The position numbers were made by a program, and so were the translations under genes. DNA of 64,000 nucleotides, taken from the NCBI GenBank assembly GCA_027382625.1, contig JAJKFJ010022210.1, positions 1 through 64,000 on the forward strand, given 5' to 3'. How positions within the stretch are numbered: position 1 is the stretch's first letter; each line of letters begins with the position of its first letter. Positions 27,258 to 60,384 of the stretch are shown here, piece after piece. The DNA comes from Tetmemena sp. SeJ-2015. Taxonomy: Eukaryota > Ciliophora > Spirotrichea > Sporadotrichida > Oxytrichidae. The notes below the pieces were generated by a model, which was not told the DNA's origin, made no database searches, and saw nothing but the letters and a program-made list of their open reading frames with translations.

Positions 27258-27675
27258 ATCACTTAATAATAATTATATATTAATATTTAGTGGATATATT
27301 TATAAAATGAATATTTAAATTTTAGGTTAGTAATTTTTTTAATAAAAAATAAATAAACTCTATTCTTATGATGGGAAGGAGAAATAATATATTTAGTTTT
27401 TTTTTAAAAAGATATTTTCATAATAAAAAGAAATTTAATAATTTGTTAAAATCAAACTTTCAATTATATAAATTTTAATTATGTTGTTTAAGTATAGCCT
27501 AGATATTGTGTCTTTAGAATGATGACTAAATTTAATACTTTTTAATTTGATTTAAAATATTAAATTGCAATCTTTTAAATAAAATTAAGATTCTAAAATT
27601 TATGAAATAATTGTTGAGGTATTAAAAATTACTAATCTCATTATAGGATGAATATGAATAGTTGATCGCGGATAG
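27258..27675. other. spacer upstream of M14
   Basis: AT-rich, about 420 bp. No gene or motif recognised. Confidence 0.45.
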
Positions 27676-28129
27676 TCAGAAGCTAATGAAGATAGAGTTC
27701 AAGGGAAAAGTGATATATATTAAATTCTTGATAGTTTTAATGCATTATGTTTTTAAATTTAATGGAGTAGCCAGAACCTACCAGATCAGTGTTAAGATTA
27801 TGAAGAACATCGCCCCAGACTTAGTTTTAGGTTTTGTGTCTGCGCTTTGAGTAGTTGGTGGTTGAGGGTGAGAGTTGACTCCTTTTGAATGTTATGGTGG
27901 GTGAGAGTTTTCCTTGCGCATGATGTTAATCTTGTTGTTTATGATGTTCAAAAGTACGCAAATCCAAGCATTCTTTTGATTCTCTTTGAGTTTTCCTGCG
28001 AAGATGGGTCTCTGTTGATCAGGAAGGACACTTTCTAACGTGACACTTGCCTCTTCGAGGTCACTTTCGATTTTTAGAGGTTAGTGTTGTAGTGTTATTG
28101 TAGTTGTCGATGTATTGTTGTATAGACAT
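27676..28129 (-). CDS. candidate non-family gene, one frameshift
   Basis: This is the most GC-rich sustained stretch in the window. ATG 28129 starts M-S-I-Q-Q-Y-I-D-N-Y-N-N-T-T-T-L-T. One extra A in a run of five near 28065 shifts frame, after which I-E-S-D-L-E-E-A-S-V-T-L-E-S-V-L-P runs on through W-I-C-V-L-L-N-I-I-N-N-K and a proline-rich linker. The frame stays open to TGA 27678-27676. Codons use CAA/CAG for glutamine more than the array does. The last third overlaps an open plus-strand frame (27662-27850), so the true 3' end is unsure. The helical start faintly recalls C1D/Sas10-type domains, which is too weak to name. It is not related to the array family. Confidence 0.4.
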
Positions 28130-28353
28130 TTAAATTAATTACTTCAAAATTAATGATTATTTATGAATCAACCAACAAGGAGCAAAAACAAGTATTTCTA
28201 ACAAATTTAAACAACGATCATCTATTCTTATCCTTCTATAATTATGCCAACTATTGCTCATATTTTATAAATAAATTCTAAAATTACTCTAAATTTAATT
28301 TTTTTTAAAAAAATATTTATAATAAGATTTTGCAAAAATTTTTCAATCCACAA

Positions 28354-30259
28354 TCAAATTTCATTGAATTAAATCTCTTTAAAATAGATCTTAGAGTTTT
28401 GTATAAATTCTTTTATTCTGAATTCATTACAAATTCCAAAATTTTAGTCTTGGATAGATACTATTGTTGCTTTTGTTTTAATTTTAGTGCCTTTTTAGTC
28501 AATATATTTCAAAATTGTATCCTGCTATTAGGTTAATTTATTCGTTGTGCATTTAAAATTTGTAAGAATCTTCAATTTTTGAACAAAAATTTTGATTTTA
28601 AAATTAGCAAATGTTGCAAGTAAGTTCAGAACATCAAAGATGCAAGTTTCATCATTGGAATTAATATTGACAATTATTTCAGGATTGCAGCCATTATTTA
28701 TGCTTTCTAACGCTTTCGTAGCCTAATAAAGATAAAAATAATTGAGGAATTAAGAATCACTAAGGGCATAAAAATAAAACACAGAATTTTTATAACTTAC
28801 GTTTGGTCATTATAGTACGCTCGCAACTTAATTTTTGAGATTGACAGCAATTAGCTCAAATTCTAAGTCTCTTCTATCTGTTGGACTTCGCCAGGTCCAA
28901 AATTATATTAGCATTAAATATTTTGGCTTCTAAGATAAAAATGGCGGAAGCCTACTGTTAGGGCATGAAAAAACTTCGTTTGTTGGTGTTGAACTATCAA
29001 ATCATATTCTCCGTTTATCACATAATAATAATAGAGCGACATTCTTGAATCCATCTACTAAATAATTTGCGATTATAATCGCTGCTAGAGCCGATGAGTC
29101 AATCCAAAAGTATGGAGTTCCAAATAAGGAAATAAATCGACACTTTTGGACCCGCTTATATTCTATCTCTGTATTTTGCTAATCATTATTCAGTCATCCC
29201 TTTCTTATGATAAAATATTTTTCACGAGAATAATTTATAAAGAAAGAGTTCAGGGGAGGTCCACTTGCTTAACTAAAAGAAATGGTCGAAAAATCTTAAT
29301 GACTAACTGCAAGATACTTTATCTCCAAAAATTAAGCTTATAAATTTTAATTATTTTTATTTAATAATCTAATAAATATTATTTGCCTTAAATTCAAAGT
29401 ATTCTAATTTCTTAAGTTCATTTATCATCATTATTTTTATATTTTGATTATTTTGGAATAAAAATTAATCACTACCATCTGGATCGCTGTCAGATTTTAG
29501 TCACCAAACTAGTCTCTTGAGATTAGGCAAGCTTCCAAATAACTGCATCATTATTTCACTAAGACTTACATTATCTATTGTGAGTTTTTCTATATTTTCT
29601 AATTAATCTAAATCTAGATGAAGAAGTCGCAAATTGCGAATAATTAGCTCCTTTACTTTAGAAACAATATTGCTTTATACTCTTTTTTATATATTTTGAC
29701 TGCTCTCTTGTTTAGGCGAGAATTTATTAAATACATAATACAGAGCATATTAATCAAGAGAAACTTGTTCTAGCTCTACCATCTGAAAGTTTTCTACTGA
29801 ATTTATACTGGTATTTCCTTATAATATATATTACTTAAGTATGAGCTTTCGAAACTCAATCTTGTTTAAATTATCTTTGGCTATTCTAGTAATAAATTCT
29901 TCCATAATCCAATGATCTCTCTATACTTCGTAGTCTATTTAGACTTTTTAAGGAGCATCAATCGCTAGAAATACTATGAATTATTCTGTCTCCTACTCAG
30001 CTAGAGCCCATTTTTAATTTTTTATATTTTGAATACATAGTCTATAAGCTTTTGAGAATTAGAATATGTATTAATCCTCTTAATTATTTAGCTCTTTTAG
30101 ACTGTATCTGTAAATACTGAGTGTGAAATTAAGGCAGTCTATATTTTTCAAAAGCAAAAGACTCTCTCTATTAATCTTATTTAATTTTGAAAGATTCTGA
30201 AAGCAAAAGTTTGCATTCAGGTACTCAAATATTAACAATTTTAAATATTTTGATAGCAT
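28354..30259 (-). CDS. M16: family gene interrupted by a 646-bp insert
   Basis: The first coding part is 30259-29369 (297 codons, M-L-S-K-Y-L-K-L-L-I-F-E-Y-L-N-A-N-F to F-E-F-K-A-N-N-I-Y-Q). The second is 28722-28354 (A-T-K-A-L-E-S-I-N-N to Y-F-K-E-I, stop TGA 28356-28354). Together they make 419 residues in one frame. The insert sits between two copies of CTAATAAA. The joined sequence has 23 residues between the E-F-K-A strand and P-E-I-I-V, exactly as in M20 and M21. Codon 253 (29503-29501) is TGA after L-V-W, where M19 has CAG. Otherwise both parts are clean. If the insert is removed from DNA or RNA this could be functional, apart from that TGA. Confidence 0.8.
28723..29368. mobile_element. 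IES-like insert in M16, 646 bp
   Basis: Bounded by perfect 8-bp direct repeats CTAATAAA (28723-28730 and 29369-29376). It has no GT-AG at the possible junctions in the gene's sense, so it is not a spliceosomal intron. Its interior is richer in GC than the flanks. A subterminal motif GGAATTAAGAATCACTAAGG (28746 onward) recurs at the same distance from the repeat in the M19 insert, and in altered form in the M27 insert. No transposase frame. An internal eliminated sequence is the favoured reading. A transposon with target-site duplication is the alternative. Confidence 0.65.
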
Positions 30260-30582
30260 TACTTTTTTACCTATTATAACTTTGTTTTCTTAATTTTAAA
30301 TTATAATAATTCAATTATTTTTAAATTAAAATACAAAATCATTTGCAAAGAATTGTTGTCCATAGAAAAAATAAGTGTAAAATCTAAATTTACTAGATAA
30401 AATCAAACCATATCTAATTAAGTATTGGAAGAAGAGAATTTATATTCAAAATAAAAATGAAAAATATCCATAATTAATGCTAACTAATTAATTTTAGAGT
30501 AAACTTAAATAAAATCTAGCAACTTAAAATCATAATATAAAACACTTATTTCTTATTTCAATAAATTTAAGAATCTATTTAT
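30260..30582. other. spacer between M16 and M17
   Basis: AT-rich, 323 bp. Nothing recognised. Confidence 0.4.
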
Positions 30583-31862
30583 TCAACAATAACTTAAAAT
30601 TATTTCTTAAAAATAGATTGTAGACTTATTTTTAGCTCCAATAAATTTCATTTCATGAAACTGTTTTGTTTAAGTCAAGCTTTTATTCAAAATATGAGTC
30701 TGAATATACTGATCTTTTCTTTCTGTTTTAAATGAAAATTCTATCTCCTCTCCATAAGTCTCCTCCTCTCTTTCATTCCACTTAAATTTCCCTTTTGTCA
30801 CTACTCTTGGTAAATATAATTGTATTTAGAATCTCTTAAAATATTTAAAAAGATAAAACACTTCTTCGATATTTACTTCACCCTCAATCAAATGAATCAC
30901 TACATTAGGCTTAGTTTTTAAATGAATATATGATAAAATTCGTTAGATTTTTTAGAATTTTCTTGTCTCGAACTCTAAAAATTGTAATTTTCGTAGATTT
31001 TAGAGTAAAAGTCCTTTTAAATTTTGACTAAACTTGAAATTCTTGATGTTCTAATATTCTACCTTACAATTTTTGCCTTCCTTAATTTTCCAGATAATTT
31101 TTTTAAGATTGTGACCCTCTGCTAGCTGATTTATCATAAGTTTATTAAAATAAGAGTTCTTGACGATGAGTATTTTTAAGTTTTAAATTAATTTCTTGAA
31201 TTCTAAGTATGGGAAAATAGAATCCTTTATAATCATTTCTTTAGTTTTTATTTAGTCTATTGAAGGTTCAATGTATTTATCTTTCTAATTTATATCCTAT
31301 AGAAATCCTGCAATGTCATAATTCCTTTTTAAAAAATACTTATATTTATTTTCAACCAATTGAACTTCTTGGAATTTCATTTGGCTAAAGCTTGCCTTCC
31401 CAGTCAAATCTATGTTTACTTGAAATTTTCATTGATTGTAATTTAAATTTCTTGGAACAAAAATGCTGTAAGTCTCTTGCATAAATTTCTCAAAGCTTTC
31501 CAAATGCACAGCGGGGCTTCCAGTTTGCTCGAAATCGATATAAATTTTAGATGTCGCAAATCTTTATAGCTTTTTTAATAAAAATGTCTGCAGACTTTTC
31601 CATTTGATTTAACAATTGCCTAGTCGAATCGATCACTAGTTTGTAGGCATTGGAGAATGATAATATATAGTTCTCACAATTTACAGATAGTGCAGGAGGT
31701 TTAGAAGGGCATTATATTCTTAATGCTTATTTATCACCAATTCTATTCTTTAAGCTGAGCAATGATTTTCTGGTTTATCGGTTTAACTTTGAGTATGTTT
31801 CTAAATGTGAAATTAAGGCTTAGAAATTCAAATATGCTGAGTTTTAAATTTTATGATAACAT
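30583..31862 (-). pseudogene. M17: family member, frameshifted early
   Basis: ATG 31862 opens M-L-S-x-N-L-K-L-S-I-F-E-F-L-S-L-N-F-T-F-R-N-I-L-K. A one-base shift is needed immediately after this to continue N-R-x-T-R-K-S-L-L-S-L-K-N. Length is normal (1280 nt). The C-terminus S-T-I-Y-F-x-E-I-I-L-S-Y-C is followed by TGA 30585-30583. It is closest to M14, which alternates with the M16/M18/M19 subgroup in this part of the array. It lacks the insert seen in those neighbours. Confidence 0.65.
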
Positions 31863-32359
31863 CTATTTTTTATTTTTATATATAAAATCGAGTGTAACTT
31901 ACTGATAGATATAAAAATTACTTGAATATTTAAACTTTAACATACTCCTCTTTTTAGAAATAAAAGGAAAGTCTATTCTTTAGTTTGAAGTGAGAAAAGC
32001 TAAATGAAAATTAAATTATCTTCTAAAACGATATATTTGTACTTTAATTGAAAACTTTTAATTTTATTTTTAAAATATCATTATAATTTTATATTAAACG
32101 TATTTATCCTATTGATAATGTCGAGCGTTGCATATAATATTTTTCGAATGAAGTTAAATATGATATATATTTTATTAATTTTACATTTCATTTTAAAATT
32201 AAAATTACTTAAAAAGAGTATGAGAATCCTTTTCGAATCCCTTTCTTATCTTTTTAATGAACTTAATGAAGGTAATTCTAAAAAAGAAACAATATATTTC
32301 ATACAACCGATTAATTTGAATTTAAATAGAATTAATTATTCTTTTATCTTATTTTAAAG
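31863..32359. other. spacer between M17 and M18
   Basis: AT-rich, about 500 bp. A plus-strand frame at 32112-32357 is open but hydrophobic, repetitive and unlike anything else here, as expected from composition. No feature claimed. Confidence 0.45.
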
Positions 32360-34141
32360 TCAAAATTAAGAGAAACAAATTTCTTTAAAATAGATCTTTG
32401 AGTTTTGTATAAACTCGTTTATCCTGAATTCATTCTGCTTTTCATAATTTTAATCTTTAATCGATATTATAGTTGCCTTTATATTATTATGCTTACCATT
32501 CTAGTCAATAAATGTCCAAGATACTTCCTTTTATTATGTAAAAGTATTCGTGCTCCATTTACAAATTTTAAACATCTTCAGCTTATTAACAAAAATTGTT
32601 ATGTTAAAAGTCAAAAATTTAGTAAAGAAGTTCAGTATATCATCGACGCTAAAATCATTAGAACTTATGTGCATAATTATTTCAAAATTAATGTCACTAT
32701 TAATGCTTTGCAAAATTTTATCTGCTTCATAAAGATAATTATTTTTTAAAGTATTAAGAAAGGAACCAGTGGCATAAATGAAACATATGTGCAAATTGCT
32801 TAATCCCATCGATTTAGCACTCTCAAGAGAGCACGACACATTTGAGAATAGCCCCCAGCCAACTTAAATGTTTCAGTCTGCTGGACTTGCCAAAAAAACT
32901 TTTTAGACCTAAAGCGGATGAGTTTTTTTGTTCAACTTTGAAACTCCATTGATTAGTTTTACACAATTAGTAGCATGGTGAGATAATATATACTTTCTCA
33001 AACAATACACACCGTAGCAAAAGTATACCGTTCTATCCCTTAAGATTTAATTCTTACCAAATTTCCTATTGAACTATCAATCCCAAGTGTAAATATATTG
33101 AATGAGTATAATGAACTTAGGCTTTTGGTTCAATTCACTCAATCACAACTCCTCTTACGTTTTAATGTCACTAGATAACAAATCTAAACCCTCTCATTTC
33201 ACTCTAAGTTGATTTTGGAGCCTAAAGCAAATTTATAAAATGAATTTTTAATTCAATAATTTCATAAATCTAAAATACTTCAAACTCAAAGAATTCTAAG
33301 TGCTTAAGTGCTTTAATTAATCTAACATCTATATTTATGTCATCTGAGTAATTTTCAAAGCTTTCATCATAATCATATTCTTCTTATGCTGGATATCATC
33401 ATAGCCACCAAGAAAGTCTTTTGAGATAAGGTAAGCATCCAAAAAAATGTATAATGATTTCACTTAACTTTACATTTTATAGAGTAAGTTATTCTATATT
33501 TTTTAGATATGATAGATCCAAATAAAAAGTATTTAATTTTCAATAGTAACTCCCAAATTTTTAAAATTTTTAAATTTTATTAATTTCCAAAAATCTTTAA
33601 AGAAAAAGTTTTAAAAATAATTCAAGCAAATTTTTTTTGCAAATTTTAAAAATTTTATCAAACAAGTTTGAAAGTTTGCAAGAGAGGTAAAGTTTACATC
33701 ACTTTCCATAACATAATTCTTAAGAATGATTTTACGAAATTCAATCTTATTTATATCATCTTATGAAATCTCTTTGTCTAGTAATTAAGGAATAACTTGA
33801 TATTTCCTAACATCTATGTCTATTATGACATTCTAAGGTGCATTAATAGCAATCAATCGCATGAATTATTCTGCCTCCTCCTATAATAGACCCTAGTTTT
33901 CTAATTTATTTCTAATTTTAAGCTTATACACCTTTGAAAAATAGAATATGTATTGATCTTATGAATTATTAATCTCCCTTAGGTCGTATCAGTCTATAAT
34001 GAGAGTGAAATTTAAATCATCATTATTTTTCAAAAGCAAAAGACTCTCTCTGCTGAGCTTATTCAATTTTGAAAGTTACTTAAAGCAAAAGTTAGCAGAT
34101 AAATGCTCGAAAATTAATAATTTTAGATATCTTTATAACAT
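32360..34141 (-). pseudogene. M18: family gene with a 535-bp insert and several lesions
   Basis: ATG 34141 starts M-L-x-R-Y-L-K-L-L-I-F-E-H-L-S-A-N-F. Codon 51 is TGA (33991-33989). Two adjacent TGA codons follow L-S-W-W-L near 33400, and 33530-33680 is a homopolymer-rich stretch with a frameshift. Past the insert the frame is clean: A-D-K-I-L-Q-S-I-N-S-D-I, F-E-I-I-M-H-I, then K-I-Y-F-K-E-I-C-F-S and stop TGA 32362-32360. The insert lies at the same codon as in M16 and M19. Joining across the 8-bp repeat again gives the family spacing of 23 residues. Confidence 0.7.
32726..33260. mobile_element. IES-like insert in M18, 535 bp
   Basis: Bounded by TTCATAAA at 32726-32733 and 33261-33268. In M16 and M19 the bounding octamer is CTAATAAA, so both ends have changed together in this copy. 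It shares the interior word GGC-AAGTCCA-CAGA with the M16 insert. Retained direct repeats whose two copies change together are expected if the repeat is needed for excision. Confidence 0.65.
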
Positions 34142-34755
34142 TATTTTCCACCTTTTTTTTCAATTTAGTTCTCTAAAAGTTAAAATTATTATAATTCCTC
34201 AAACTCAAAATATTTTAATTTAATTAAAATATTTTATAAGTGTCATCTCTTAATAATCTAATCCAAATAAATAAATTTAATTAATACTTAAAATTAATAA
34301 TCTTAGTCATATTTTTACTGTTCTTAATTTTAAGCTTGAATTTTATAAACAATGCATTTTTAATAAGTCTATTGAATAAATTCTAAATTTTATTCAAAAA
34401 TGCTAAGAATAATTTCTATAAATCATGCTTTTATTTAATAGAGAAATAAAACAGCAGATTATTGTAATACTTATCTTCTTTGTCTATCATTAAAATTATT
34501 GCTGCATATATTTAAATTTGAATTCCATCATTCATAAATTAAAAAATAGCACTTACACTCTGATGTTTTTATATCTCAGGATTATTAAAAGGTAAAAATG
34601 TAGGATCCCTGACAAAACACTATAGTAGGATGGGTGAGATTAGGGAGTTAACTAGTCTTTACTCAATGCCCTTCTTCCTCGATGTCTTTATCAAAAATTT
34701 AATTATCTCGAATAATTTAAAAAACAATTATATTAACATTTTTAAAAAATTAGAG
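34142..34755. other. spacer between M18 and M19
   Basis: AT-rich, about 610 bp. A short GC-richer patch (34595-34680) has no recognisable content. Confidence 0.4.
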
Positions 34756-36690
34756 TCAAAATGAAGAGAAGCAGATCTCTCTAAAATATAATCTTGAGTT
34801 TTATAAAAGTTCTTTGATTCTAAACTCATTGCAATTTCCAAAATTTTAGTCTTGAATTAATTTTAAGGTTGCCTTTATTTTAATATGATTACCATTCTAA
34901 TCGATATATGGCCATTCTATCTCCTGCTATTAAGTTAATTTATTCGTGTTCCATTTAAAACTTCTTATCATTTATAGCCTTTTTAACTAATATTTTTATT
35001 TTAAAATTCCCAAACTTGGTAAGTAAGTTCAGAACATCAACGACGCTAACTTATTTCTAATTTATGCGCACAATTATTTCAGGATTGCAGGTATTATTTA
35101 TTCCATTTAATACTCAAGTTGCCTAATAAAGGTAAAATTAATACAGGAATTAAGAATCACTAAGGGTATATATAAAGCAGAGGTGAAACTCACTTAACCT
35201 TCGCTTGAAGATTATCATCTAATGATGGCAGCTCCATTAAAGAATGCGGTCAGCCAGAGAATATGTCTCATCTGCCATTTGGAATATGCAAGGCAAAATA
35301 TATCTCCTTAATGATAGTGAAATTTGAAGGCTGAAAAACGGCTGAGGGTTTTTTCTCCAATTGAAAACTCCACAGAGCAAGGTGTTAGGCTAAAAACAAA
35401 TATTATAATAAAATAGTTTGTCGAATAGATGATACATTTATACTTTCTAGTACGAGATATCATTGCCATTGACCATATATAATTTTAACAGCTGCAAATG
35501 ATTGCTGCAGAATATCAATCTTTATAGAAAGGAATGTTGATTAAGGAAATCGAGCAACTACAAAGGAACTACATCTTTTCTTTCCTGCTTTATTTTCCCC
35601 AAAAATGCACTTACCTCTCTTATAAGATTTAACATAACTTGAAGAATGATTATTAACGCGAAAGCCTTTAGAGGTAGTTCAATAACTTATACTAAAAAAA
35701 ATTATATAGAATCTCCACGCTTAATTTGATACAAAAATTGCGGTTTATTAATGTTATCTTTTTTAATTTATTAATCTAATAAATATAAATCACCTTAAAC
35801 TCAAAGAATTCTAGCTTCTTTAATTCATTAATCATTTTACCGTCTATATATAATATTTTTTCGTCACTTTCGAAGAATTCCTCATCACTATCACTATCGT
35901 CATCTTCGATATCAGATTTTAGCTGCCAAATTAATCTTTTGAGATTAGGTAAACATCCAAATAACTGCATCATAAAATCACTTATCTAAACATTAATTAG
36001 TGTGAGTCTAACTATATATTTTAGATAAGCCAAGTCCAGAAAATAAAGTTGAGAATTGCGAATAATTAACTCCTCTGCTTTAGGTTTTCGATTTTGCTAT
36101 ATTCATTTTTATATATTCTTAATTCTTGTGGGTTCAGACTTTCCCATATTCAACCAATTTTAACGAAGATATTCTCGCGATGTTAATATAAGTGAGAAAT
36201 TTTCAAGCTCCACAATTTGAAAGTTTTCAATTGGCGAAAACCCTGTTTCACTTTACAAAATATAGTCCTTAAGTATGATCTTACGAAATTCAATATTTAA
36301 AAAATTACATTTTGGAATTTTATTGCTAATTCTAAAAGGAATATTGTGAAATTTTTATACTTCTAAGTCGATGATGACGTTTTAAGGGGCATAATTTTCT
36401 AGAAATTCTATGAACTATTCTGTTTCCTCACGAGCTTGAGTCAAACCGTTATTTTTATTTTGAATACAAAGTCTATATGACTTAGAGAATTAAAATATAT
36501 ATAGATCTTGCTTATTATAAAGCTCCGTTTTGCTGTATCGATATAAACAGAGTGTGAAATTGAGATCATCATTATTTTTCAAAAGCAAAAGACTCTCCCT
36601 CATAGATTTGTTTAAATTTGAAAGACGCTTAAAGCAAAAGTTTGCATTCAGATATTCAAAAATTAGCAATTTCACAAATTTAGACAACAT
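34756..36690 (-). CDS. M19: family gene interrupted by a 653-bp insert
   Basis: The first part, 36690-35776, is a clean 305-codon frame from M-L-S-K-F-V-K-L-L-I-F-E-Y-L through L-T-L-I-N-V, L-I-W-Q-L-K-S-D and an acidic stretch (D-D-D-S-D-S-D-E-E), to F-E-F-K-V-I-Y-I-Y-Q. The second part begins A-T, then TGA (35116-35114) where M16 has lysine, then C-N-P-E-I-I-V-R-I, one later frameshift, and S-R-L-Y-F-R-E-I-C-F-S-S-F with TGA 34758-34756. The acidic loop after the W strand is longer than in M16. Excluding the insert, the length is 1282 nt. Confidence 0.75.
35123..35775. mobile_element. IES-like insert in M19, 653 bp
   Basis: Bounded by CTAATAAA at 35123-35130 and 35776-35783. GGAATTAAGAATCACTAAGG begins at 35146, the same distance from the repeat as in M16. 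The rest of the interior has diverged strongly from the M16 insert, more than the exons have, as expected for non-coding sequence that is removed. Confidence 0.65.
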
Positions 36691-36967: not shown

Positions 36968-38245
36968 TCAAAATTTGCTAAGAATGATGTCCTTAAAATA
37001 AAGCTTTTATCTCTTATTGAATCCATCTAGCATCAACTCATTGTAATTCTTGTTTTAATTATTATATCTCATTGATCTTATAGTTGCACACATTTCAAAT
37101 TGAATTCCTTCTCTCATAAATTAGAAAACTAGCTCTTTTTCTCTAGCCTTTGTACTGTACCGCCATTCGAATTCCTCAGAAATATTCAGTCTATTTAAAA
37201 AGAGATCTATAGAATATTTCTGAAATTGAGACATAAAGTTTAATACATCCTCAATGTTAGCTTCACCTTCAAGCACACGCACTTTTATCTAAGGATTGCA
37301 GCTTATATGTAAACCTTGCAATATCTTGTTGACTTTTTTAAAGTGAGGAGTTTCAAAATCTAGGATCTCAAGATTTTTTAAATCACTAAGCATAGTGCCT
37401 TTGAGGTTTAAATTTAATTAATATGCCATAAGGTAATCCACTTCATCCTATTCCAAGCCTATGTCACTTTTGATTAACCATGTCAGACTCTTGATATTTA
37501 CGCATTAGGAAAATCTTTGTATTATTAATTCGCTGCACAAAACATTGACAATTTTGAGTCTTTCAATTAGGAGAATCAAAGGTGAGCTAAGATATATCAA
37601 AATTGAATCTTTGATAATTAACTCTTGAGTTTTTATACTTTCATACACCCAATTTAGAGTTAAATCATGCTTGCTGACTTCTTCTCTGACTGTCTAGATA
37701 TTATAGAAAGCTCTCTGAAATAAATTCAAGCATTAATTGTAGATAGAGATGTTATCCAGTTCGATTACTTAAAAATTTCTGACTATACCTAAATCTATAT
37801 CTCCAACACAGATATAGTCTGATAGAGTTATTTTACGAGGAATATGTTTTTAATTTAAATCAACTCCGAATCTTTCTAAACAGCCCTCAAGCAATTAGAA
37901 ATTTGCCAATAGATTGATATCAAAATACACTTTTTAAGGGGCATTTATTCCTAGAAGTAGAATGAAAGCCATAGTGTCTAATGCGATATCATTGATATTC
38001 TTGATTTAACAGCTTTCCAAATTTAGGCTGTAGGCCTTGGAAAATTTGAAAATGTATCTGTCTCGATTCAGATGGATTTCATTACAGTCGAAGCTGTAAA
38101 TTATGAGGGAACGGTTTTCATCAATCCTGTTTTTCAGGAGTAAGAGACTCTGCTGGTCAGATTTGCTTAGTTTCGAAAGACGGAGGAAACAAAAGTTGGT
38201 ATCAAGATATTCAAAGATAAACAATTTCACAGATTTTGAAAGCAT
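36968..38245 (-). CDS. M20: intact 425-residue F-box-like/LRR-like protein
   Basis: 1278 nt in one frame with no in-frame TGA: ATG 38245, stop TGA 36970-36968. N-terminus L-F-I-F-E-Y-L-D-T-N-F-C-F-L-R-L-S-K-L is the most F-box-like in the window. Later landmarks are V-Y-F-D-I-N-L, I-P-R-K-I, L-K-I-V-N-V-L-C-S-E-L, I-K-S-L-T-W-L-I, L-E-I-L-D-F-E-T, V-R-V-L-E-G-E-A-N-I-E-D-V and K-L-Y-F-K-D-I-I-L-S-K-F. The 5' third uses noticeably more C- and G-ending codons (CTC, CGT, GAC) than other members, which suggests selection for expression or a different age. It has no insert at the M16/M18/M19 site. A good candidate for a working gene. Confidence 0.9.
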
Positions 38246-43440: not shown

Positions 43441-44713
43441 TCAAATTAAAGTGAATTAGATCTCCTAGAAATAAAGCCATGAACTTGACTTTAAATCCGT
43501 GAATTTAATTTTGTAAGATTTTTTCCCGCAAATTTCAAGCTTGCATTTAACACTGGCTTACTTTTATCAAAATTCTTTTCTTTTTAAAATTCGAAATTTA
43601 TTACCTTGCTAATAGACTCCTTCTTAAATCTCAAAATACTAAGGCCTTGAATTACTACCCTCCGAATGTACAATTTAAAAGAGCAATTTTTAAAATTTTC
43701 GAATAGAGAATAAACCTTCTTTATGCTTATCTCATATTCCTGAACTCGAATAATAGTTTTAGGTTGGCATTTGTAATACAAGCACTACAAAATCTGGTTA
43801 ATTTTTTCAAATAAATTAACTTCGAATTCAAGGTAGGTTAAGGATTTCATCCCACTTAGCATAGTTCCTTTAAAGTTTCTACTAAACTTATATTTGGTAA
43901 TATCGTCGCATAAATATTAAAAACTTTTCTCGGGCTGTATTCGCCAAATTAAACTTTTAAGATTAATGCATTTTCAAACTCTTGGATCATGAGCTTGCTG
44001 CAGTAAGTGTTTATTACAGTGAGCTTTTCAATAAAGCTGAAAATGTTTGCGCTATAAAAGTAGGGTAATACAGAATTTTTGATACCAACCTCTTACGTTT
44101 GAACTTCACTCTGATTTAATTTTACTTGTAGAGGCCATTTTTAGGAAATTTTCAGTTAAAAATAAGCCATGTTAAAGGAATTTCATTAGAAAAAATTTAG
44201 ATGACCATCATAAACAAAAATCCAATTCAATTCCAAGGACTTAAAATGCTTCCAGCCATTTAAAAGGAACTATTCATTCCATACATACCCCTTAAATTTT
44301 ACTGAACGAGGCTTTAAATTAAAAAATGAATTAGTTCCTATCTTACTTATAATATCCATTTTTGTTTAAGGCGAATATATTATATCTATTAACACTTCAG
44401 ATCGAGGGAATTCACTTAATTTTGCTAAAAAAATCTCTGCAGACTTTTCAATTTAGGTATTCTTTTCCTTGAAATAATTGAAATAAAATTTATATGCTTT
44501 TGAAAAAGATAGCAAGTAAATTTCTTGATCTTTATTCATATTTGGCGGGGAGATACAATGTATTTATAGAGAATTCTAATCAGAGACTCTATTTTTTAGT
44601 AGCAATAAACTCTACCTAGTTTTGTGATTAAGCTTCGAATTTTTGGAGAAGTTAAAATTCATAGAGAGATATTCAAATATTTACAATTTAATATTTTCTG
44701 ATAATTAAAGCAT
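43441..44713 (-). pseudogene. M23: family member with several frameshifts
   Basis: ATG 44713 opens M-L-x-L-S-E-N-I-K-L-x-I-F-E-Y-L-S-M-N-F and S-K-L-N-H-K-T-R. The frame is open through E-V-L-I-D-I-I and L-K-P-R-S-V to about 44190, where a TGA and a shift occur after F-V-Y-D-G-H-L-N-F-F. Further landmarks in other frames are I-E-K-L-T-V-I-N-T-Y-C-S-K-L-M and I-R-V-x-E-Y-E-I-S-I. The end is S-S-S-W-L-Y-F, E-I and F-T-L-I with TGA 43443-43441. Sister of M22. An upstream palindrome-like TGGAATATTCAG lies at 44772-44783. Confidence 0.65.
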
Positions 44714-44771
44714 CTCAATTTTTTTCAAAAATATATTATAATCTTTACAGCTTAAACAAATTATATGTGTT

Positions 44772-44783
44772 TGGAATATTCAG
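44772..44783. promoter_or_regulatory. upstream motif of M23
   Basis: TGGAATATTCAG, about 59-70 bp upstream of the M23 start; one member of the GAATATTC set. Confidence 0.35.
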
Positions 44784-45024
44784 AGAAATTATATATGTTT
44801 TATTTTAAGGTTAATCGAATCTATTATAAAATAAAGATTTTATAAGATTTGTTTCACCTAAATTAATCGATAAATTATTTATTTTATCTACTAAACTAAA
44901 AAAGCTAACTTTTAAAAATTAATTATATTTATTTTTTAAACTAACTTTTATATTTAGAGAGAAACTACAATTGTAATTTAATTTTTAATCAACAAAATAA
45001 ACAGTGGATGACTATTTTTAGAAT

Positions 45025-45130
45025 TTTATATAAACTCTAAAAAGATTTCCAGCAAAGTAGAGATTGAAATTGAAATTTGTTTTAAGTTCATCCAATTTTA
45101 ATGTTGAGCTTATAAATAAAATTATTATAT
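45025..45130 (-). pseudogene. small C-terminal remnant
   Basis: Minus strand reads F-N-F-N-L-Y-F-A-G-N-L-F-R-V, resembling a family C-terminus, immediately downstream of M24, which has its own end near 45190. Probably left over from a deleted copy. Confidence 0.35.
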
Positions 45131-45189
45131 TTAGTAAAGCCATATATTTTATAAAATGATTTCAGTTTATTTAATTCTTTAATCAAACT

Positions 45190-46408
45190 TATTCAATGGA
45201 TATTTTATTGAAAAATATTTACTAGAACTAAGAGCATGGTTCCATCTGTTTAAATTCGTTATATTTAATCTCATTGACCTTTTAATTTGAAATCAATACA
45301 CCCTTCATAGAAGATTGGCTCTCACCTCTAGTGTATTAAAAATTGATCACTTTATGTTTAGAGACTTCATCTACAATCCAATTATTATTTCCAAGAATGT
45401 GCAATCTTTGAAGAACTAGCTTTATAGAGCGCATTTTAAACTACTCAAAAAGTTTCAAGACCTCCTAGATACTCACTTCTCCTTCTTAGACATAAATCAC
45501 TATCTCAGGCTAACAATTTTCATGCAGGTAAGATAACTTCTTTTCAATTTTCCCAAATTAAATCACATCAAACTCAAGATATTTCAACTTTTAAAGCTCT
45601 TTAACCATGCTTCCCTGGAATTTTTTACTTTTTATAACATCCTTGTAGTCTTGATTTGGCTGAGCTTCAACTGATAGCTTCCAAATTAAGCTTTAGAGTT
45701 AAAGACACTCAGAAAATATATTTATCATAAATTTGCTGAAGCTACAATCTATTATTGTCAGCTTCTCAATGCTTTCCTTGAAAACATAGCGAGTATAGGG
45801 AATCCAGCAATTTTTAAAAGTAACTTCTTTCGTTTAATGACTTCTTTATTTTAGATTACATCTTTCTATAATCTCCTAGAAATATTGCTCATTAAAAATA
45901 CCTCTTTTAAATTAAGAATACTGCTCAAAATACAATAATACTGAATCGAAGCATAATTTTTGGAAGTTTTCGCAGCCAAATAGAATTACATCTCTAACAA
46001 CGAATTATCTGTTTATACTAATTTTTCAAAGTTTGAGCATTTGTAACGATCCTTTTCCAATTTCGCTTAAAATATTTGACTTTAATTCATATAATTGAAT
46101 CAGTTCTAAATCAATGAAGATATAATTAGTAGAAAACTATCCAAGTTTTAAGAGAAATACCTCTAATGCTTTTGCTACCCGCTCATGCTCATTTAATTCT
46201 TTATCTTTAATAATTAATCTGTAAGATTTTGCAAAACTAACTATGGAATATTGAAGCAATAAATTTTGAGAGAACGATCTACTTCAATCCTATTTTTGAG
46301 AAGGAGAATGGCTCCCCTTGTTCTTTAATTCAATTTTGAAAGATTAAGGAAACAGAAGTTCAGATCAATATACTCGAAAATTAGTAAATACATATTACAA
46401 TTGAGCAT
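45190..46408 (-). pseudogene. M24: family member (cassette type A), frameshifted
   Basis: ATG 46408 gives M-L-N-C-N-M-Y-L-L-I-F-E-Y-I-D-L-N-F-C-F and L-S-K-L-N. A one-base shift near 46235 is needed before A-K-S-Y-R-L-I-I-K-D-K-E. Then the frame reads Y-I-F-I-D-L-E-L, K-L-T-I-I-D-C-S-F-S-K-F, S-L-I-W-K-L-S, K-Y-L-E-F-D-V-I and E-G-E-V-S-I. The C-terminus (S-S-S-K-Y-F-S-I) is weakly conserved and the exact stop is uncertain. It heads the first A-B-C cassette. Related pseudogenes are M29 and M34. Confidence 0.65.
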
Positions 46409-46766
46409 TATAATTTAATGTTTATAAAATTAGATCGATCAACTTAAAATACCTGCTACACGAAATTGAACATTTAAATTAATTATATATAATATAAGCA
46501 AAATTTATAATTGTAGAAAATACCAGATCATAATTTATTTCAATTAATTGTGATATAGGCATTAGTAAAATAATTTATTTAAAATTAATTGCAGATAAAT
46601 TTATTAATTTATTATGCTTGAGTTGTTTAATTAAGTCTGATCTCTATAAAGAGGTTGGAACTTGATTATTCTTTTACATGCTCAATAATTCATCAATTCA
46701 TCAATTCATCTATTAATTTATTAAAAAAATGCTTATAATCTATTCTAGAAAACTATTTCAAGTTTA
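46409..46766. other. spacer between M24 and M25
   Basis: AT-rich. A short tandem ATTCATCA repeat lies near 46687-46710 (three imperfect units). Nothing else. Confidence 0.4.
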
Positions 46767-48039
46767 TCATTTATTCTATAAAGAGTTGCTTTAGGCTATC
46801 TCTTTAAAATATATTTGAGAGCTATTATCTTACTTAATGAAGAAAAGCTATTTGATTCCTATCTATCTTGTTTCAGATGCATCAAATTTCATTTTACAAT
46901 TATGAGTTTTACCTTTAATATCTATTTAAAAGTCTATTATTCCTTCTTTAACTCCTTTATTTATTACAAATTAAATCTTTTCTTCAACTTTTATTCTGTT
47001 AAAAATGAGCCTAATTTCGTATTTTCTAAAGTCCATTAAAAATATGTAAACTTCATTTAAGCTCACTTCATCCTGAAGAACGCTCAAAATAATGAATGGC
47101 TCACTATTTCTATGTAAAGACTTCAAAATATTTTTAGCTTCTTATAATTTAAGAGCGTCAAATATTATAAGTTAAATATCCTTGTTTTCCTTTAGAATGC
47201 TGCCTTATAATGAATTGGTGAAATTAAAACTTAGCTTATTGAGTTGATCTATTCTTTGCTAAATCTCTCTACTTATTCTCCAAACTTTAGTTTTAAGATT
47301 ACAACACTTAGAAAATTCTTTAATCATCATATCGCTACAAAAGCAACCCAAAATTTGAAGACTTTCTATTTCCGTGTGATTTTAAAAAAATTGGAAAAAT
47401 CAAGAGTGAAGTCTCAAAAGCCAGATTTTTGTCCTAATTGTTCGAGGTAATAATACATATTACTCATTCATTATTTAGATTACTTTCTCAAATTAGTCTA
47501 ATTATTTGTTCTAAAATTAATACTAAGATTCACAATTAACTAAGCTGCCTTTCATTAAAACTGTTGTGAAAAGCTCCTTTAAATATAAGTCAAAATCTTT
47601 AATTGAAAAATTATTTAAATATATTTTTCTAGGAATTACTAGCTAAGTGAGTCCTTTCCTGAGCTCCTTTAGAATTTCAGAACACTCTGAAATGCTTCCA
47701 TTACATTCGATGTCAATGAAGACTCTCTTGGATGTGAAATATCGAAGCTTCTTAAGAAAAAGAGCAGCTGTTTGTTAAACTTAGGAAAATTCTGTTTTGT
47801 GCACATCAATTCAAACGTTGTAACTTTTGGCAAAGTTAAGTATATAGTTTTCTACTGTTCTTGCTTTATTTAATTGGAGGCTTGACGCAATAAATTGCTA
47901 GAGATCTGGTTTCAGGGATTCTATTCTTTAGCTACAAAAGGCTTTCTCGATTTCAGGTACTCAATTTTGAGATAATCTTGAAGCAAAATGCAAGCTCAAG
48001 ATGCTCAAAAATAATTAATCTTAAGTTTGGAAAAAGCAT
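46767..48039 (-). pseudogene. M25: family member (cassette type B) with early TGA
   Basis: ATG 48039: M-L-F-P-N-L-R-L-I-I-F-E-H-L-E-L-A-F-C-F and I-S-K-L-S-T, then TGA, then N-R-E-S-L-L. Further shifts separate A-I-Y-C-V-K-P-P from the middle. Conserved parts include I-E-S-L-x-I-L-G-C-F-C-S-D-M-M-I-K-E-F-S-K and the S-S-x-I-Y-F-K-E-I-A end with TGA 46769-46767. The region 47640-47800 is nearly identical to 55660-55850 of M30. TGAATATTCA at 48088-48097. Confidence 0.65.
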
Positions 48040-48087
48040 TTTATAAATATAAACTCTTTTTTCAATCATAAATGTAAGGTCAATGTG

Positions 48088-48097
48088 TGAATATTCA
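48088..48097. promoter_or_regulatory. upstream palindrome of M25
   Basis: TGAATATTCA, perfect 10-bp palindrome 49-58 bp upstream of the M25 start codon. Confidence 0.4.
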
Positions 48098-48506
48098 AAA
48101 ATATAAACTATTAAATTCTTTTTTGGGCCTTTTAATAAATTTTTTTATCGATTTAATTTTAATTTGTTTTAAATTAATGAAATTATTTGATGATCTTATT
48201 TAATTTTAAATTTATAAAATTTTACAGGAAATATAATCTGTTTTTCAAATTTTAGAATATTAATTATTCAAAATTCAACTTGAATTAAGTTTGAGATAAA
48301 TTCCTTATTTAATACCCTGGCATTTTTTGCTTTAAAAATCAATTTCTATTTCATTCTAGTTAAAAAGAATTTTCAGGCTTATAATATATATTTAAAACTT
48401 TAAATAATGAATTTAAATCGTATATATTTTTTATAAAAATCAAATTTCTCATGGCTATATTTTAAATTATAAATGCAAGCAAATTTCTTATAAATTTTAT
48501 TGTTCC
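48098..48506. other. spacer between M25 and M26
   Basis: AT-rich; no further feature seen. Confidence 0.4.
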
Positions 48507-49778
48507 TCAGATTTTTGTGAAAGTAATTTCTTTGAAATATAGTTTAGACCTGCACTTGCAATCTGAAAATGTTAATTTGTAATTTTATCCAAAACTATTT
48601 TCTAAATTCTTCTCTATAATTGTCTTAACTGTCTTCCAATTATTTGCTTTTTAAAATTAGAATTCCATTATCTTTTGTTATGAATTATCTGAATCTGATT
48701 TCCAATTAAATGAACTTTAGACTTTTAATCTTGGAACAATTAGTCTTATTTTAAACTTTCTAAAGAACCTAAATAAATTCAAAGCATCTTATATACATAC
48801 CTCGTCTTCCATAACTTCCGCTACTATTGAAGGCCTTGAATTTATAAAGATATGAGAAAGAATTGGTTATAATTTTTAAAACTTAGCTACTTGGAATTCT
48901 AGGTATTCTAAATTTCTTAGGTTTAAGAGAATAAGACCTTGCATATTTTTACTCATTTTAAATTTTTCCATTTTAGATCGGAAAGATTCATCACATAAAT
49001 TATCATTGATTTTCCAAATTAATGACTTTATGTTCGTATATTTTGAAAATTCTTTCAGCATGAGCTTGGTGCAATAACAATTTATTATTGTTAAATTTTC
49101 TATTTTTTGGCTTAAGTAAATTTTCAAAAAGGGTAAGCAACAATTTTTGAAAGTTAATTGTTTTTTTGGAATATAATCCTTCGCAAAAATACTCATTTTT
49201 TATCTTGTTTTTAACTACATTATAAAATTCCAGCATATTCAAAGAATCTCTTTGCAATTTATCTAGATGTTCTTTATAGAAGATTGAGTTAGAAAATTTT
49301 ATTGTTGTAAACTACTCACTATTTAGTAATCTAATTTCTGTGTCAAATTTTGAATTCACATAGTAAATGTTTCTAGGCATGATCTTTTAAATTTACCCCA
49401 ATCCAATCTCCAAAATTAGTAAAGTAGTTATTGGAAAGTTTCCAGATAACTTGACATCTATATGAACAAAATTTTGAGTATAGTTCACCAACTAAGAGAT
49501 AAAAGTTTAAGCTGATTTCTCGTATTTCAAAATTCTTTGTGCTTCGTATTTAAAATTAGCTTGTATGCTTTTGCAAATGAAAACAAATATCTTTCTTGAT
49601 TTCTATTAAGCTGAGGAGGATCTAAGCACTTTATTTTTAATGCAGGACAGCGCTCTATTCTATTCTTGAGTGAGAGGAGTTACTCTCTTATCAAGTGACT
49701 AAGTTTTGAAATTTCCTTGAAGTTAAAAGTTAAGTCTAAATTTTAGAAAATCTAGAGCTTTAAATTTATTGAAAGCAT
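48507..49778 (-). CDS. M26: family member (cassette type C) with small frameshifts
   Basis: ATG 49778 opens M-L-S-I-N-L-K-L-x-I-F-x-N-L-D-L-T-F-N-F-K and I-S-K-L-S-H. Frameshifts lie near 49540 (after N-T-K-H-K-E) and near 49200. The long clean part 49196-48876 includes L-T-F-K-N-C-C-L-P-F, L-T-I-I-N-C-Y-C-T-K-L-M, S-L-I-W-K-I-N-D and L-E-Y-L-E-F-Q-V-A-K-F. The C-terminus S-K-L-Y-F-K-E-I-T-F-T-K-I is followed by TGA 48509-48507. Sister of M28, M31, M33 and M36. Confidence 0.7.
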
Positions 49779-49835
49779 ATTTATTTTTAGAATATATTTT
49801 CTGGATTATTTAGCTGAGATAATTTAAAGAATTAC

Positions 49836-49845
49836 TGAATATTCA
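49836..49845. promoter_or_regulatory. upstream palindrome of M26
   Basis: TGAATATTCA, 58-67 bp upstream of the M26 start codon. Confidence 0.4.
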
Positions 49846-49986
49846 ATAAATTAAGTAAAAGGTATTAAAATTTATGTAAAATTTATCATGAATTGTCTGG
49901 ATTTTAAATTATGGCAAAAGTGACTGAGAGGTTAGAGGAAAGTTTTTTTAACTTTTATCCAATTTAGATATTATATTTTAATTATT

Positions 49987-50003
49987 CTCTCTCTCTCTCT
50001 CTC
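49987..50003. repeat. (CT)n microsatellite
   Basis: Uninterrupted alternating C and T, 17 nt. Confidence 0.9.
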
Positions 50004-50204
50004 CTATAATTATGGAGCATATATATAATAATTGAAATGCAATATCTGCGCCAGTTATATTTCTAAGTTGCAGCAGTTTTCCTTTCAATTTAAATTAGAT
50101 GATGACTTGAAAAAGTGTTTATTTGCATATTTAAAGATTTATAAATATTAATTGGGAGAGAATATTTAAACTTAAGCTTTATATTATTTTTAATTGCACT
50201 AAGT

Positions 50205-50221
50205 TATATATATATATATAT
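50205..50221. repeat. (TA)n microsatellite
   Basis: Uninterrupted alternating T and A, 17 nt. Confidence 0.9.
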
Positions 50222-50424
50222 CCCAATTATAATGCCAAATTATTTAAGATGAATTCTTTCCAATTCTTGAAAATAAACATTAAATACTCCAATTCATTAC
50301 TCCATAAAATAAGAGAATTAAACCTTTGACTTCTTTTCTTGCTGTAATAATTATCACTTACAGTAATACTATAAATATTTAACAAATTATTCCAAATTAG
50401 AAAAGATTTTTAACTTAATTTTTA

Positions 50425-51844
50425 TCAAAAACTGCTAAAGGTTATCTCTTTGATATATAAATTTGAATTACAACCTGGACTTATGAAATAAAGCTTTCTA
50501 TATCCTTACTTGCTCGCTTTCACTTCAGCCTCAACTATCATCATTTATTAAATTTGAGTTTAACCCTCTTAAACTAATTCAAAGTCTATTCTTTTTCCAT
50601 TAAATCCTAGATCATATATCCAGCTAAACATTTCTTGCACTTTTATTCTGTGTACATAAAGAGATATATAGTACTTTTTTAATTACATTATAAAATTATA
50701 AGCTTCATGGAAGCTCAATTCTTCCTGTAGAATATATATACTAATTCTAGGTTGGCAATTTTTGTTCAAATAAGCCAAATTCGTGTATGCTTCAGCTAAT
50801 TTACGCACATCAAAAGATAGGTAATTGAGGCATTTATTCTTCTTTATAATGACGCCTTAAAATGCATTTGAGAGACTCACCCCAACCTAGCTGAGTGGTC
50901 CCCATTTTTGCTCTAGCTCATTATGAACTCTCCAAATTATAGTCTTAAGATTACAGCACTTAGAAAATTCCTTGATCATCATATCACTGCAAAACAGTCA
51001 AAAACATCCAGTGTTTCTATTTCACTGTGATTTTGAAAACTTAAAATAAATAAAATAAAATAAATAGTTAAGGAATTAAGATCCCCTAACGGGCATATAA
51101 TACTTAATCGATTTAAAGTAATTCACAGGCGTAACTCCTTGATCAGTTGTGCCACGTCACCGCGAAAGCCCACCGTTTTGTAAACTTAAAAAAATCAAGA
51201 TAGAATAATCTAAGATCAACTCTCTTGTTTTTATTTTTCAAGGTATTTATGCATAGTATGTATTAGTTGCTTGTATGTATTCATCAAACAAGAATTAGTC
51301 AAATTAATTTTTCAAAAAAATAATCTAAAGATTCAAATAAGACTATAGAATTATTCACAGAGACAGTTGAAAATTATTCTCTGACAAGTAAATCGAAGTC
51401 GTGTTTAAATTAACGATTTACATATGTTATTTATCTTGGAGCAAGAAGCTGCGTTTACCCCTTTTATAGCTCTTTTAATATTTAAGGGCCCTTTGAAATT
51501 TCTTTAATACTTTTTATATCAATGAAGATCCTATTAGATGTAAAATATCGAAGTTTCTTAAGAAATATAGCTTCTGACTCTAATACTTATTAAAAATTAG
51601 TTTTTAGCATATCTATGATTAGAGTGTAGCTTTTAGCAAATAGAAGTATATAGCTTTTATTGTTCTTGGTCTATTTAATTGGGGGCTCGCTGCAATAAAT
51701 TCTTAGAGAATTTTTCTCATGGATTCTGTTCTTAAGATGTAGAAGGCTTTCTCTAGTTGAGGTGTCCAATTTTGAGATAATCCTAAAGCAAAATGTCACT
51801 TCGAGATACTCGAAAATCAACAATCTTAAGTTAGTGAAGAGCAT
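50425..51844 (-). pseudogene. M27: family member (cassette type B) with a 145-bp insert
   Basis: ATG 51844 gives M-L-F-T-N-L-R-L-L-I-F-E-Y-L-E-V-T-F-C-F and I-S-K-L-D-T-S-T-R. The frame is open past R-I-F-I-D-I-K to about 51375. The insert (51031-51175) splits the segment before I-E-T-L-D-V-F-D-C-F. Joined, it reads L-I-F-L-S-F-Q-N-H-S-E-I-E-T-L, parallel to L-I-F-L-K-I-Q-N-P-A-E-I-E-N-L in M30. One T is missing before S-D-M-M-I-K-E-F-S-K. The end N-L-Y-I-K-E-I-T-F-S-S-F has TGA 50427-50425. The type-A gene expected to its left in the cassette order is absent. Confidence 0.7.
51031..51175. mobile_element. 145-bp GC-richer insert in M27
   Basis: Flanked by TTTTGAAAACTTAAAA (51031-51046) and TTTTGTAAACTTAAAA (51176-51191), a 16-bp direct repeat with one mismatch. 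The interior is the sharpest GC peak of this region. The subterminal GGAATTAAGATCCCCTAACG (from 51072) matches the motif in the M16 and M19 inserts. On the minus strand TGGCACAACTGATCAAGG (51154-51137) resembles a tRNA A box, and GGGGATCTTAATTCC (51086-51072) loosely resembles a B box. It is IES-like or SINE-like. No complete tRNA fold can be drawn. Confidence 0.6.
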
Positions 51845-52232
51845 TATAATTTATAAATATATATTCTTTGAATAATTAGTTTAGCTTAAAATTCAAATAT
51901 TCAGAAATGTATCAAAAATTGACAAATTTTGGAAACAATTATTTCTATTAATTTAGTCATTCTCTTTTTATATAAATATACATTTTAGATATTTTCTCTC
52001 CATAAAATAATTTAAAATTAACAAAGATATATTTTTAAATTTTTGAATTTTCATAAATGCAATTTTAGAATCTTTATTTTTTAATTTATGTTCATAGTTT
52101 AAATCATAAATTTTAATTAATTTATTTAGTAATTTCATCAGAATAATATTACAAATAATCATTCATAAAGTGTTTCTTTTAAAAATTCAAAATTATAATA
52201 TCTCTGTCTTATCTTTATAAATTATTTTTTTC
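51845..52232. other. spacer between M27 and M28
   Basis: AT-rich. A weak GAATATTC-like site (CAAATATTCAG, near 51895) lies about 50 bp upstream of M27. Nothing else. Confidence 0.4.
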
Positions 52233-53498
52233 TCAAAATTTTGCGAATATGATTTCTTTGATATACAATTTCGACTTGAGTTTACAATCGAAATATTTTA
52301 CTTTGTAATACCCTTCATTATTCTTTGCTCTTTTCTATTTAATTTATGTTTTGATAGTATTATTATTCGCTGTATTTAAGAATGAGAACTCCATTACATT
52401 TTGCTTTTAATCTTCATCGATTTTCAATTTAAGCGGGCTTTAGACTCTTAATCTTGGAATATAAAGTTTGATCTAAAACTTTTTAAAGAACCTAAAAAAA
52501 TCTAAGCTATCTTAAATGCAGACTTCATCTTACATAACTTCAATTACTATTTTTGGCCTCACCTTAAAAGAGATATGAGAGAGAATTCCCTAAATTTTAT
52601 CAAACTTAACTGTTTAAAATTCTAGATACTCCAAAATTTTTTAATTTTAGAGTATATAACCCTTGATATTTCTACTAAGCTTCAATTTTTCCATATATTT
52701 TATGAAAGATTTCACACATTAATCATCCTCTATTTTCCAAATTATTTACTTCAAATTGGGATATCTTGAGAATTCTTTGAGCATGAATTTGCTGCAATAG
52801 CAGCTTATTACTGTCAGCTTCTCTATGCTCTGGCTAATATAGGTTCCGAAAAAAGGTAGGCAGCAATTCTTAAAAGATAGTTCTTTAGTCCGAATCTAAA
52901 ATTAGTAATCTTCTTCTTCTTATTTTTCTGCATTCTCTATTGCATTATGGAACTCTAATGTATTATATTTTTCTTTTGTGAGTTGTTCATGAAATTTTTC
53001 GAACAATATTAGGCTCTCAATATTTATAGTTTAAAATATATCCCTCCATATTAAACTGAAATCTACTTTAAAAATTCAATTTTTTCGGAATAGATTTCCA
53101 GCAAAAAGAAATTTATTTGATTTAATAATTTAAAATATTGAGATTTCAATTTAAATACGGCCATCTTACTCCACATCTATATAAACTAAATTGTCACTGT
53201 ATTTTACCAGTTTGGTGAGGAATCTTTCAGCTGAATTATCGTACTAAGAAAATTTTTTTTAGTCTCCAACGAAAACTAATTTGTAAGCATTTGCAAATGA
53301 AAACAAGTAGCTCTCTTGATTTTCATTAAGCTGAGGAGGGTCAATGCATTTTATTATTAGAGGAGGGTTGTCATCCAAAATGCTTTTAAGTTGCAGAAGT
53401 TAATCTCTAACCTTTTTGTTTAGCTTTGAGATGTTCTTGAAGTTGAAAGTTATATCTAAGTATTTAAAAATACAGAGTCTTAAATTTTCTGTGAGCAT
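52233..53498 (-). CDS. M28: full-length family member (type C) with one in-frame TGA
   Basis: 422 codons in one frame from ATG 53498 to TGA 52235-52233. Codon 141 (53078-53076) is TGA after L-F-R-K-N, where M36 has leucine (TTA); M31 has TGA in the same column. Landmarks are L-R-L-C-I-F-K-Y-L-D-I-T-F-N-F, I-S-K-L-N-K-K, V-Y-I-D-V-E, L-S-F-K-N-C-C-L-P-F, L-T-V-I-S-C-Y-C-S-K-F-M, I-I-W-K-I-E-D-D, L-E-Y-L-E-F and K-L-Y-I-K-E-I-I-F-A-K-F. Upstream palindrome TGAATATTCA at 53561-53570. Confidence 0.8.
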
Positions 53499-60325: not shown

Positions 60326-60384
60326 ATATGTTTATTTGATAATTTATTGTGATTACGATTAAATACAAATTATTATAGAAATAT

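Follow-up and report, generated by a model that had tools for sequence, protein, structure and literature searches.

Contig C3044 of the Tetmemena sp. SeJ-2015 assembly (146 Mb, 5213 contigs) is 92,264 bases long. Its first 64,000 bases, referred to below as the window, carry on their minus strand a tandem array of one gene family, of which we examined 32 copies by frameshift-tolerant profile alignment. Three of these copies, M16, M18 and M19, are interrupted at one common codon by an insert of several hundred base pairs that is bounded by perfect 8-bp direct repeats. These inserts are predicted here to be internal eliminated sequences (IESs), segments removed from germline DNA, with the repeats as their pointers. 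The features concerned, together with the uninterrupted copy used for comparison, are as follows.

28357..30259, minus strand: M16 gene including its insert, profile positions 1-422, from the profile alignment
28723..28730, minus strand: M16 repeat copy 1, CTAATAAA on the plus strand and TTTATTAG on the coding strand, at the downstream end of the insert
28731..29368, minus strand: M16 insert, 638 bp between the repeats, G+C 0.31
29369..29376, minus strand: M16 repeat copy 2, at the upstream end of the insert
32363..34141, minus strand: M18 gene including its insert, from the profile alignment
32726..32733, minus strand: M18 repeat copy 1, TTCATAAA on the plus strand and TTTATGAA on the coding strand
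32734..33260, minus strand: M18 insert, 527 bp, G+C 0.32
33261..33268, minus strand: M18 repeat copy 2, TTCATAAA on the plus strand
34762..36690, minus strand: M19 gene including its insert, from the profile alignment
35123..35130, minus strand: M19 repeat copy 1, CTAATAAA on the plus strand and TTTATTAG on the coding strand
35131..35775, minus strand: M19 insert, 645 bp, G+C 0.31
35776..35783, minus strand: M19 repeat copy 2, CTAATAAA on the plus strand
36971..38245, minus strand: M20, uninterrupted and fully open, 425 codons, predicted leucine-rich repeat (LRR)-like fold

The two repeat copies lie 646 bp (M16), 535 bp (M18) and 653 bp (M19) apart. A preliminary description of this DNA had reported these repeats and their common codon, and both the coordinates and an independent profile alignment bear it out: the profile, built from nine other array copies with no input on repeats, picked the insert lengths 646, 535 and 653 itself, and the run of eight matches sits exactly at that length. 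With the length fixed and the search confined to roughly 30 bases around the site, an eight-base run arises by chance with probability 0.007-0.009 per gene; under a looser test, in which the repeat copies may lie anywhere in 34- and 44-base windows, the probability is 0.043, 0.050 and 0.067 across the three genes. Among the 29 array copies that cover the site, the insert is present in M16, M18 and M19 only. Deleting it with one repeat copy leaves an anchored stretch of 30 residues in each of the three genes, the same as in the uninterrupted copies M20 and M21 (the latter with an in-frame TGA at 40262), and a GT-AG pair is found at none of the nine length-keeping junctions of each insert. The earlier claims of a restored residue count and of missing GT-AG junctions are thus both upheld.

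The identity of the repeats stands out against their surroundings. Between genes, the flanks are only 53-73% identical, yet the repeat pairs match at eight of eight bases in all three genes, and two of the eight bases in the M18 repeat depart from the M16 and M19 sequence, in the same way in both M18 copies. In a neutral simulation of two independent eight-base copies evolving on the gene tree, the probability of three perfect pairs was 1e-5 at the flank rate and 1.6e-4 at a slow flank rate, and no such outcome arose in 400,000 runs at the insert rate. Because only one repeat copy is left in the coding sequence after excision, coding constraint alone does not keep the pair equal. The pointer-repeat interpretation offered in the preliminary description is hence supported by pairs that stay perfect amid diverged surroundings and by a change that M18 carries identically in both copies. 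The ratio of nonsynonymous to synonymous divergence (dN/dS) in the three gene comparisons is 0.31, 0.45 and 0.39 past the insert and 0.36, 0.42 and 0.50 ahead of it. The values past the insert suggest that for a long time these codons were translated in one frame with the part before them, the insert being removed at the DNA or RNA level.

Four inserts in tubulin genes elsewhere in the assembly give the context for removal from germline DNA. A tubulin search returned 22 match rows, many of them gene pieces, and we read nine loci covering 14 of these rows. Three loci (L047, L048 and L051) hold four inserts of 37-69 bp flanked by the direct repeats ATT, GTCGAT, CACAAT and AAGA; their removal restores KTIGGGDD, EIVDLCLDR, HYTIGSEVID and EEDMSGAGNNWA, with a GT-AG junction in none of the four. 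Between them, L048 and L051 further contain three conventional GT-AG introns, 36-56 bp long. Pointer-flanked inserts of this kind beside introns make germline DNA the simplest account of the assembly, so that the claim of germline origin, first made from the M genes, gains support from outside them. At L049 an insert is present whose ends are not fixed, and L050 is open over the match and seems to change frame near the end of the stretch read; four short divergent tubulin pieces (L052-L055) stand outside the insert count. A search for the C4A4 telomere pattern gave 21 matches in three contigs compared with 28 for the backward control, which is uninformative.

As DNA queries against the genome, the M16 and M19 inserts each match only themselves (M18 was not queried). 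The route to their relatives came from another array copy, G26, which is interrupted at another codon.

51036..51180, minus strand: G26 insert, 145 bp, a copy of a high-copy repeat resembling short interspersed nuclear elements (SINEs)

This insert is flanked by perfect 10-bp direct repeats (51182-51191 and 51037-51046; 16 bp with one mismatch), and the aligned paralogs G24, G28 and G31 run through its site uninterrupted. Near its 3' end lies a motif common to the M16 and M19 inserts, which led to dispersed relatives.

28745..28767, minus strand: 23-base motif near the 3' end of the M16 insert, common to the dispersed elements and the high-copy SINE-like repeat
35145..35167, minus strand: the same motif in the M19 insert, with one mismatch

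At up to three mismatches, the motif has 13 matches in the genome compared with none for the backward control; the M18 insert holds it only in a worn form that the motif search missed. The neighborhoods of these matches are of two kinds, the short high-copy repeat and an element of about 0.75 kb typified by L057, which is present at seven loci outside the M genes (L057 and six copies at 73-80% identity). Compared with shuffles, the last 70-130 bases of the inserts match L057 at z 11.1 (M16), 6.6 (M18) and 12.2 (M19). When added to an alignment of the seven dispersed copies, the inserts are collinear with them and line up at both ends, a relation to a dispersed element that the preliminary description had not noticed. 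Without their last 90 bases, the insert bodies show no match to L057 (z -0.4 to 0.8) and reach z up to 3.4 with L058, L061, L062, L064 and L065; with the 3' end included, comparison with L056, L060, L063, L064 and L065 gives z -1.2 to 5.5.

The three inserts have no terminal inverted repeat in common (12 bp in M16, none of at least 7 bp in M18, 7 bp in M19), unlike DNA transposons with terminal inverted repeats, including miniature inverted-repeat transposable elements. The high-copy short repeat, of which 40 out of 593 first-look candidates were scored, has duplications of 10-13 bp beside its ends in three of the eight copies tested (L056, L059 and L065); L062 and L064 have 10-bp and 8-bp matches of untrusted placement, and L060, L063 and L066 have none. 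In its shortness, high copy number and duplications it resembles SINEs; an Rfam search of five loci, bearing on a Pol III promoter derived from tRNA, 5S or 7SL, gave no match up to E 1. No open reading frame taken for a reverse transcriptase was seen in L068, upstream of L057, on which no family search was run, and no long interspersed nuclear element (LINE) partner for the shared 3' end turned up, no family search having been aimed at one. The lack of a common terminal inverted repeat and a 3' end shared with a SINE-like family give a lead toward a retroposon, and the element behind the inserts is probably retroposon-like.

Several observations bear on whether the element entered these genes once or several times. 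In a tree of the inserts with the dispersed copies, M16, M18 and M19 form one clade with support 100, within which M16 and M19 group at 84; the other inner nodes have support 29-55. The approximately unbiased (AU) test rejects every tree that joins M18 to one of the seven dispersed copies (p 0.007-0.035), and in the alignment all three inserts lack the same internal block. Local scores of the insert bodies relate M16 clearly to M19 (z 9.2) and M18 less strongly to M19 (z 5.1), and show no relation between M16 and M18 (z 0.3). The tree distance between inserts is 0.89 for M16 and M19, 1.13 for M16 and M18, and 1.04 for M18 and M19, compared with synonymous divergence (dS) of the genes of 0.92, 0.93 and 0.82, respectively. 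Insert divergence thus approximates the synonymous divergence of the genes, most likely because the insertion preceded the separation of the genes and the insert bodies then drifted at about the neutral rate. On these sequence comparisons, the three inserts appear not to have arisen independently. Taken with the relatedness to a dispersed element and the single clade, this divergence also indicates that the 8-bp repeats probably began as a target-site duplication.

We therefore consider it likely, from the sequence evidence assembled here, that the M16, M18 and M19 inserts are relatives of one dispersed element that inserted once in an ancestral gene, and that they are IESs using the 8-bp target-site duplication as a pointer. 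The element would have entered a germline gene, duplicating 8 bp of its target, and the insert-bearing gene would then have duplicated into M16, M18 and M19. During somatic development, the excision machinery would cut at both repeat copies and leave one. As a clean join would need both copies to be identical, a change in one would be retained only if the other followed, so that the pair would co-evolve while the insert body drifts. A narrower proposal, which we hold tentatively, is that a retroposon with a SINE/LINE tail, and not a cut-and-paste transposon, became a working IES, its 8-bp duplication possibly serving as a pointer at once and being kept matched across two duplications of the gene, over a span of about 0.9 synonymous substitutions per site.

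A number of points weigh against a single ancestral insertion maintained as an IES. By pairwise identity the inserts cannot be told apart from the dispersed copies, with values of 0.48-0.52 within the insert group and 0.45-0.52 for pairs of insert and copy, and the terminal branches of the inserts are long (0.40-0.51), so that the clade support may partly reflect long-branch attraction. The alignment scores against L057 are 161 (M16), 134 (M18) and 163 (M19), and the best of 150 random window stretches also reaches 134, a tie for M18 in a set of which some stretches perhaps overlap the inserts. Among the six dispersed copies in which a target duplication could be sought, L070 alone has one beyond chance (eight of eight bases, P 0.047); L057, L069, L071, L073 and L074 are at chance level and L072 has too little upstream sequence, so the mechanism of insertion rests on the M genes and the common 3' end. 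The simulations of the repeat pairs were post hoc, set up after the pattern was known. In length the M inserts (527-645 bp) greatly exceed the four inserts in tubulin genes (37-69 bp). Finally, with the inserts disregarded, the joined frames are not open: M16 has one in-frame TGA (29503-29501), M18 has three (33991, 33401 and 33398) and a frameshift near 33524, and M19 has two (36105 and 35116) and a frameshift near 34983. The three genes may thus be decaying copies for which excision has ceased to matter, and they may be recent pseudogenes. Of the IES features examined, an open joined frame is the one that they lack. A joined frame that is not open shows that the copies are damaged and says nothing on how the insert is removed.

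This damage also speaks for a dead transposon insertion in decaying genes, with repeats that are merely a target-site duplication and nothing excised. The inserts are indeed related to a dispersed element, TGAs occur in all three genes and frameshifts in two, and G26, a damaged copy, contains what appears to be an ordinary SINE-like insertion flanked by a 10-bp duplication. We nevertheless regard this account as unlikely: for an insertion that predates a dS of about 0.9, decay of a neutral duplication would be expected, but three of three pairs are perfect, and the dN/dS of 0.31-0.45 past the insert suggests long in-frame translation with the preceding codons. Independent insertions into a hot spot, at least in the case of M18, each with a fresh target duplication, would account for an M18 pair that differs in both copies at once, and the M18 body is by pairwise identity no closer to M16 and M19 than to the dispersed copies and shuffle-like in comparison with M16 (z 0.3). 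The same codon and orientation in neighboring paralogs, the clade support of 100, the rejection of M18 beside any dispersed copy, the related M18 and M19 bodies (z 5.1), the agreement of insert and gene divergence and the lack of a common target sequence around the dispersed copies together render such repeated insertion very improbable.

Introns were considered as well, and rejected on junctions, length and composition. An element-derived spliceosomal intron with unusual ends could draw on the fact that M16 and M19 allow cuts that leave TTTATTAG, which resembles a 3' splice site, at the end of the insert, and that GT (M18 and M19) or GC (M16) is present on the upstream side of the first repeat, in the codon after F-E-F-x. 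It is made improbable by the lack of GT-AG at the length-keeping junctions, M18 offering at best AT..AA, by the 36-56 bp and GT-AG ends of the three measured tubulin introns, and by an insert G+C of 0.31-0.32 that is not AT-rich; splicing would moreover leave the repeats free to diverge. An assembly artefact is scarcely credible. The assembly does contain redundant contigs, such as C4181 and C4411, but misassembly would not be expected to produce insert ends exact to the codon, together with matching duplications, in three copies that have diverged; C4181, which holds a second version of part of the window, does not extend to M16, M18 or M19.

Telomere-bearing elements (TBEs) belong to the Tc1/mariner group, are kilobase-sized and have target duplications of 3 bp (ANT), unlike the M inserts with their 8-bp repeats. 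In Oxytricha and its relatives they are, as predicted here for the M inserts, pointer-flanked transposons in germline genes (PMC9797194). Conserved IESs, according to the sections of Lyu et al. 2024 cited here, occur mainly among paralogs, mobile IESs exist beside them, and pointers are mostly AT-rich and shorter than 10 bp (PMC10901763); in the corresponding part of Feng et al. 2022, pointer sequences mostly differ even at conserved pointer positions (PMC9797194). The M inserts are like these spirotrich paralog IESs in lying at a homologous site in paralogs, with a putative pointer whose position is kept while its sequence changes, and unlike them in that their excision is predicted from sequence (PMC10901763, PMC9797194). 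Mean IES lengths are 340-487 bp in the four spirotrich species tabulated in these sources (PMC10901763, PMC9797194). In Blepharisma, the cited work has dispersed elements sitting as IESs, among them nine BstTc1 copies whose target duplications correspond to the IES junctions and, as a non-autonomous example, BogoMITE (PMC9942856). The M inserts resemble these mobile IESs in belonging to a dispersed element (PMC9942856). The Blepharisma elements, as described there, have terminal inverted repeats and putative TAA or TATA duplications (PMC9942856), whereas the M inserts have no common terminal inverted repeat, 8-bp repeats and a 3' end shared with a SINE-like family. IESs of both the conserved and the mobile type are already on record, and the M inserts would extend a known phenomenon. 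A literature search with the word SINE returned no title on SINE-born IESs, which is not a claim that none is in print.

The locus bears on how transposons become precisely excised segments in ciliates. It brings together three diverged descendants of an apparent single insertion and relatives of the dispersed element still in the genome, and this combination allows the matched repeat change to be taken as evidence for a requirement that the two copies be alike. Retroposon-like elements, besides cut-and-paste transposons, may seed excised segments; if a retroposon did give rise to these IESs, every retroposon insertion into this germline could come ready-made as an IES.

With code 11, the window has no open frame of 150 codons; with TAA and TAG read as glutamine, long frames appear, which indicates a ciliate. 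The family stop is TGA, found within two codons in 22 of the 26 copies that reach profile position 417. Neither Pfam nor the protein database searches returned a homolog of the family, and its predicted model, with a predicted local distance difference test (pLDDT) score of 73, has weak likeness to LRR proteins (best E 2.5e-4, template modeling score 0.24). Additional copies are present on contigs C4181, C2961/C4411, C2775 and C505.

In-frame TGAs are found 22 times on the alignment paths of the array, for example at 53078, 57356, 31431 and 26140 (one profile column, 142), a count that leaves out TGAs skipped by the alignment, such as those of M18 and M19. At 10 of the 22, the closest paralog encodes arginine; among the codons a single step away from TGA, about 19% (356 of 1869) are arginine codons. 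Four copies have TGA in column 142, and G27 and G29, both with TGA there, have a downstream dN/dS of 0.32. In the tubulin-like loci L052, L053 and L055, TGA stands by eye at a lysine position, and a kinase search gave an internal TGA in 17 of 137 rows, some with in-frame insertions. Recoding, read-through and decay are candidate readings of the in-frame TGAs in the array.

Other array copies have AT-rich inserts (G+C 0.13-0.22) at similar positions: G5 at 9472-9246 and 8970-8370, G7 at 15378-15169 and 14880-14302, and G2 at 2964-2646. Long repeats at the fitted length were not found in these three copies, and the inserts may be introns or IESs with short pointers. Between two genes, at 27640-28140, G+C rises to 0.40, and 319 bases are 79% identical to C2775:12892-13210; this block is probably another repeat, given that identity. 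Positions 44692-63002 have a second version on contig C4181 in three main pieces at 92.7-98.7% identity, which implies that the assembly retains separate haplotypes or near-duplicates.

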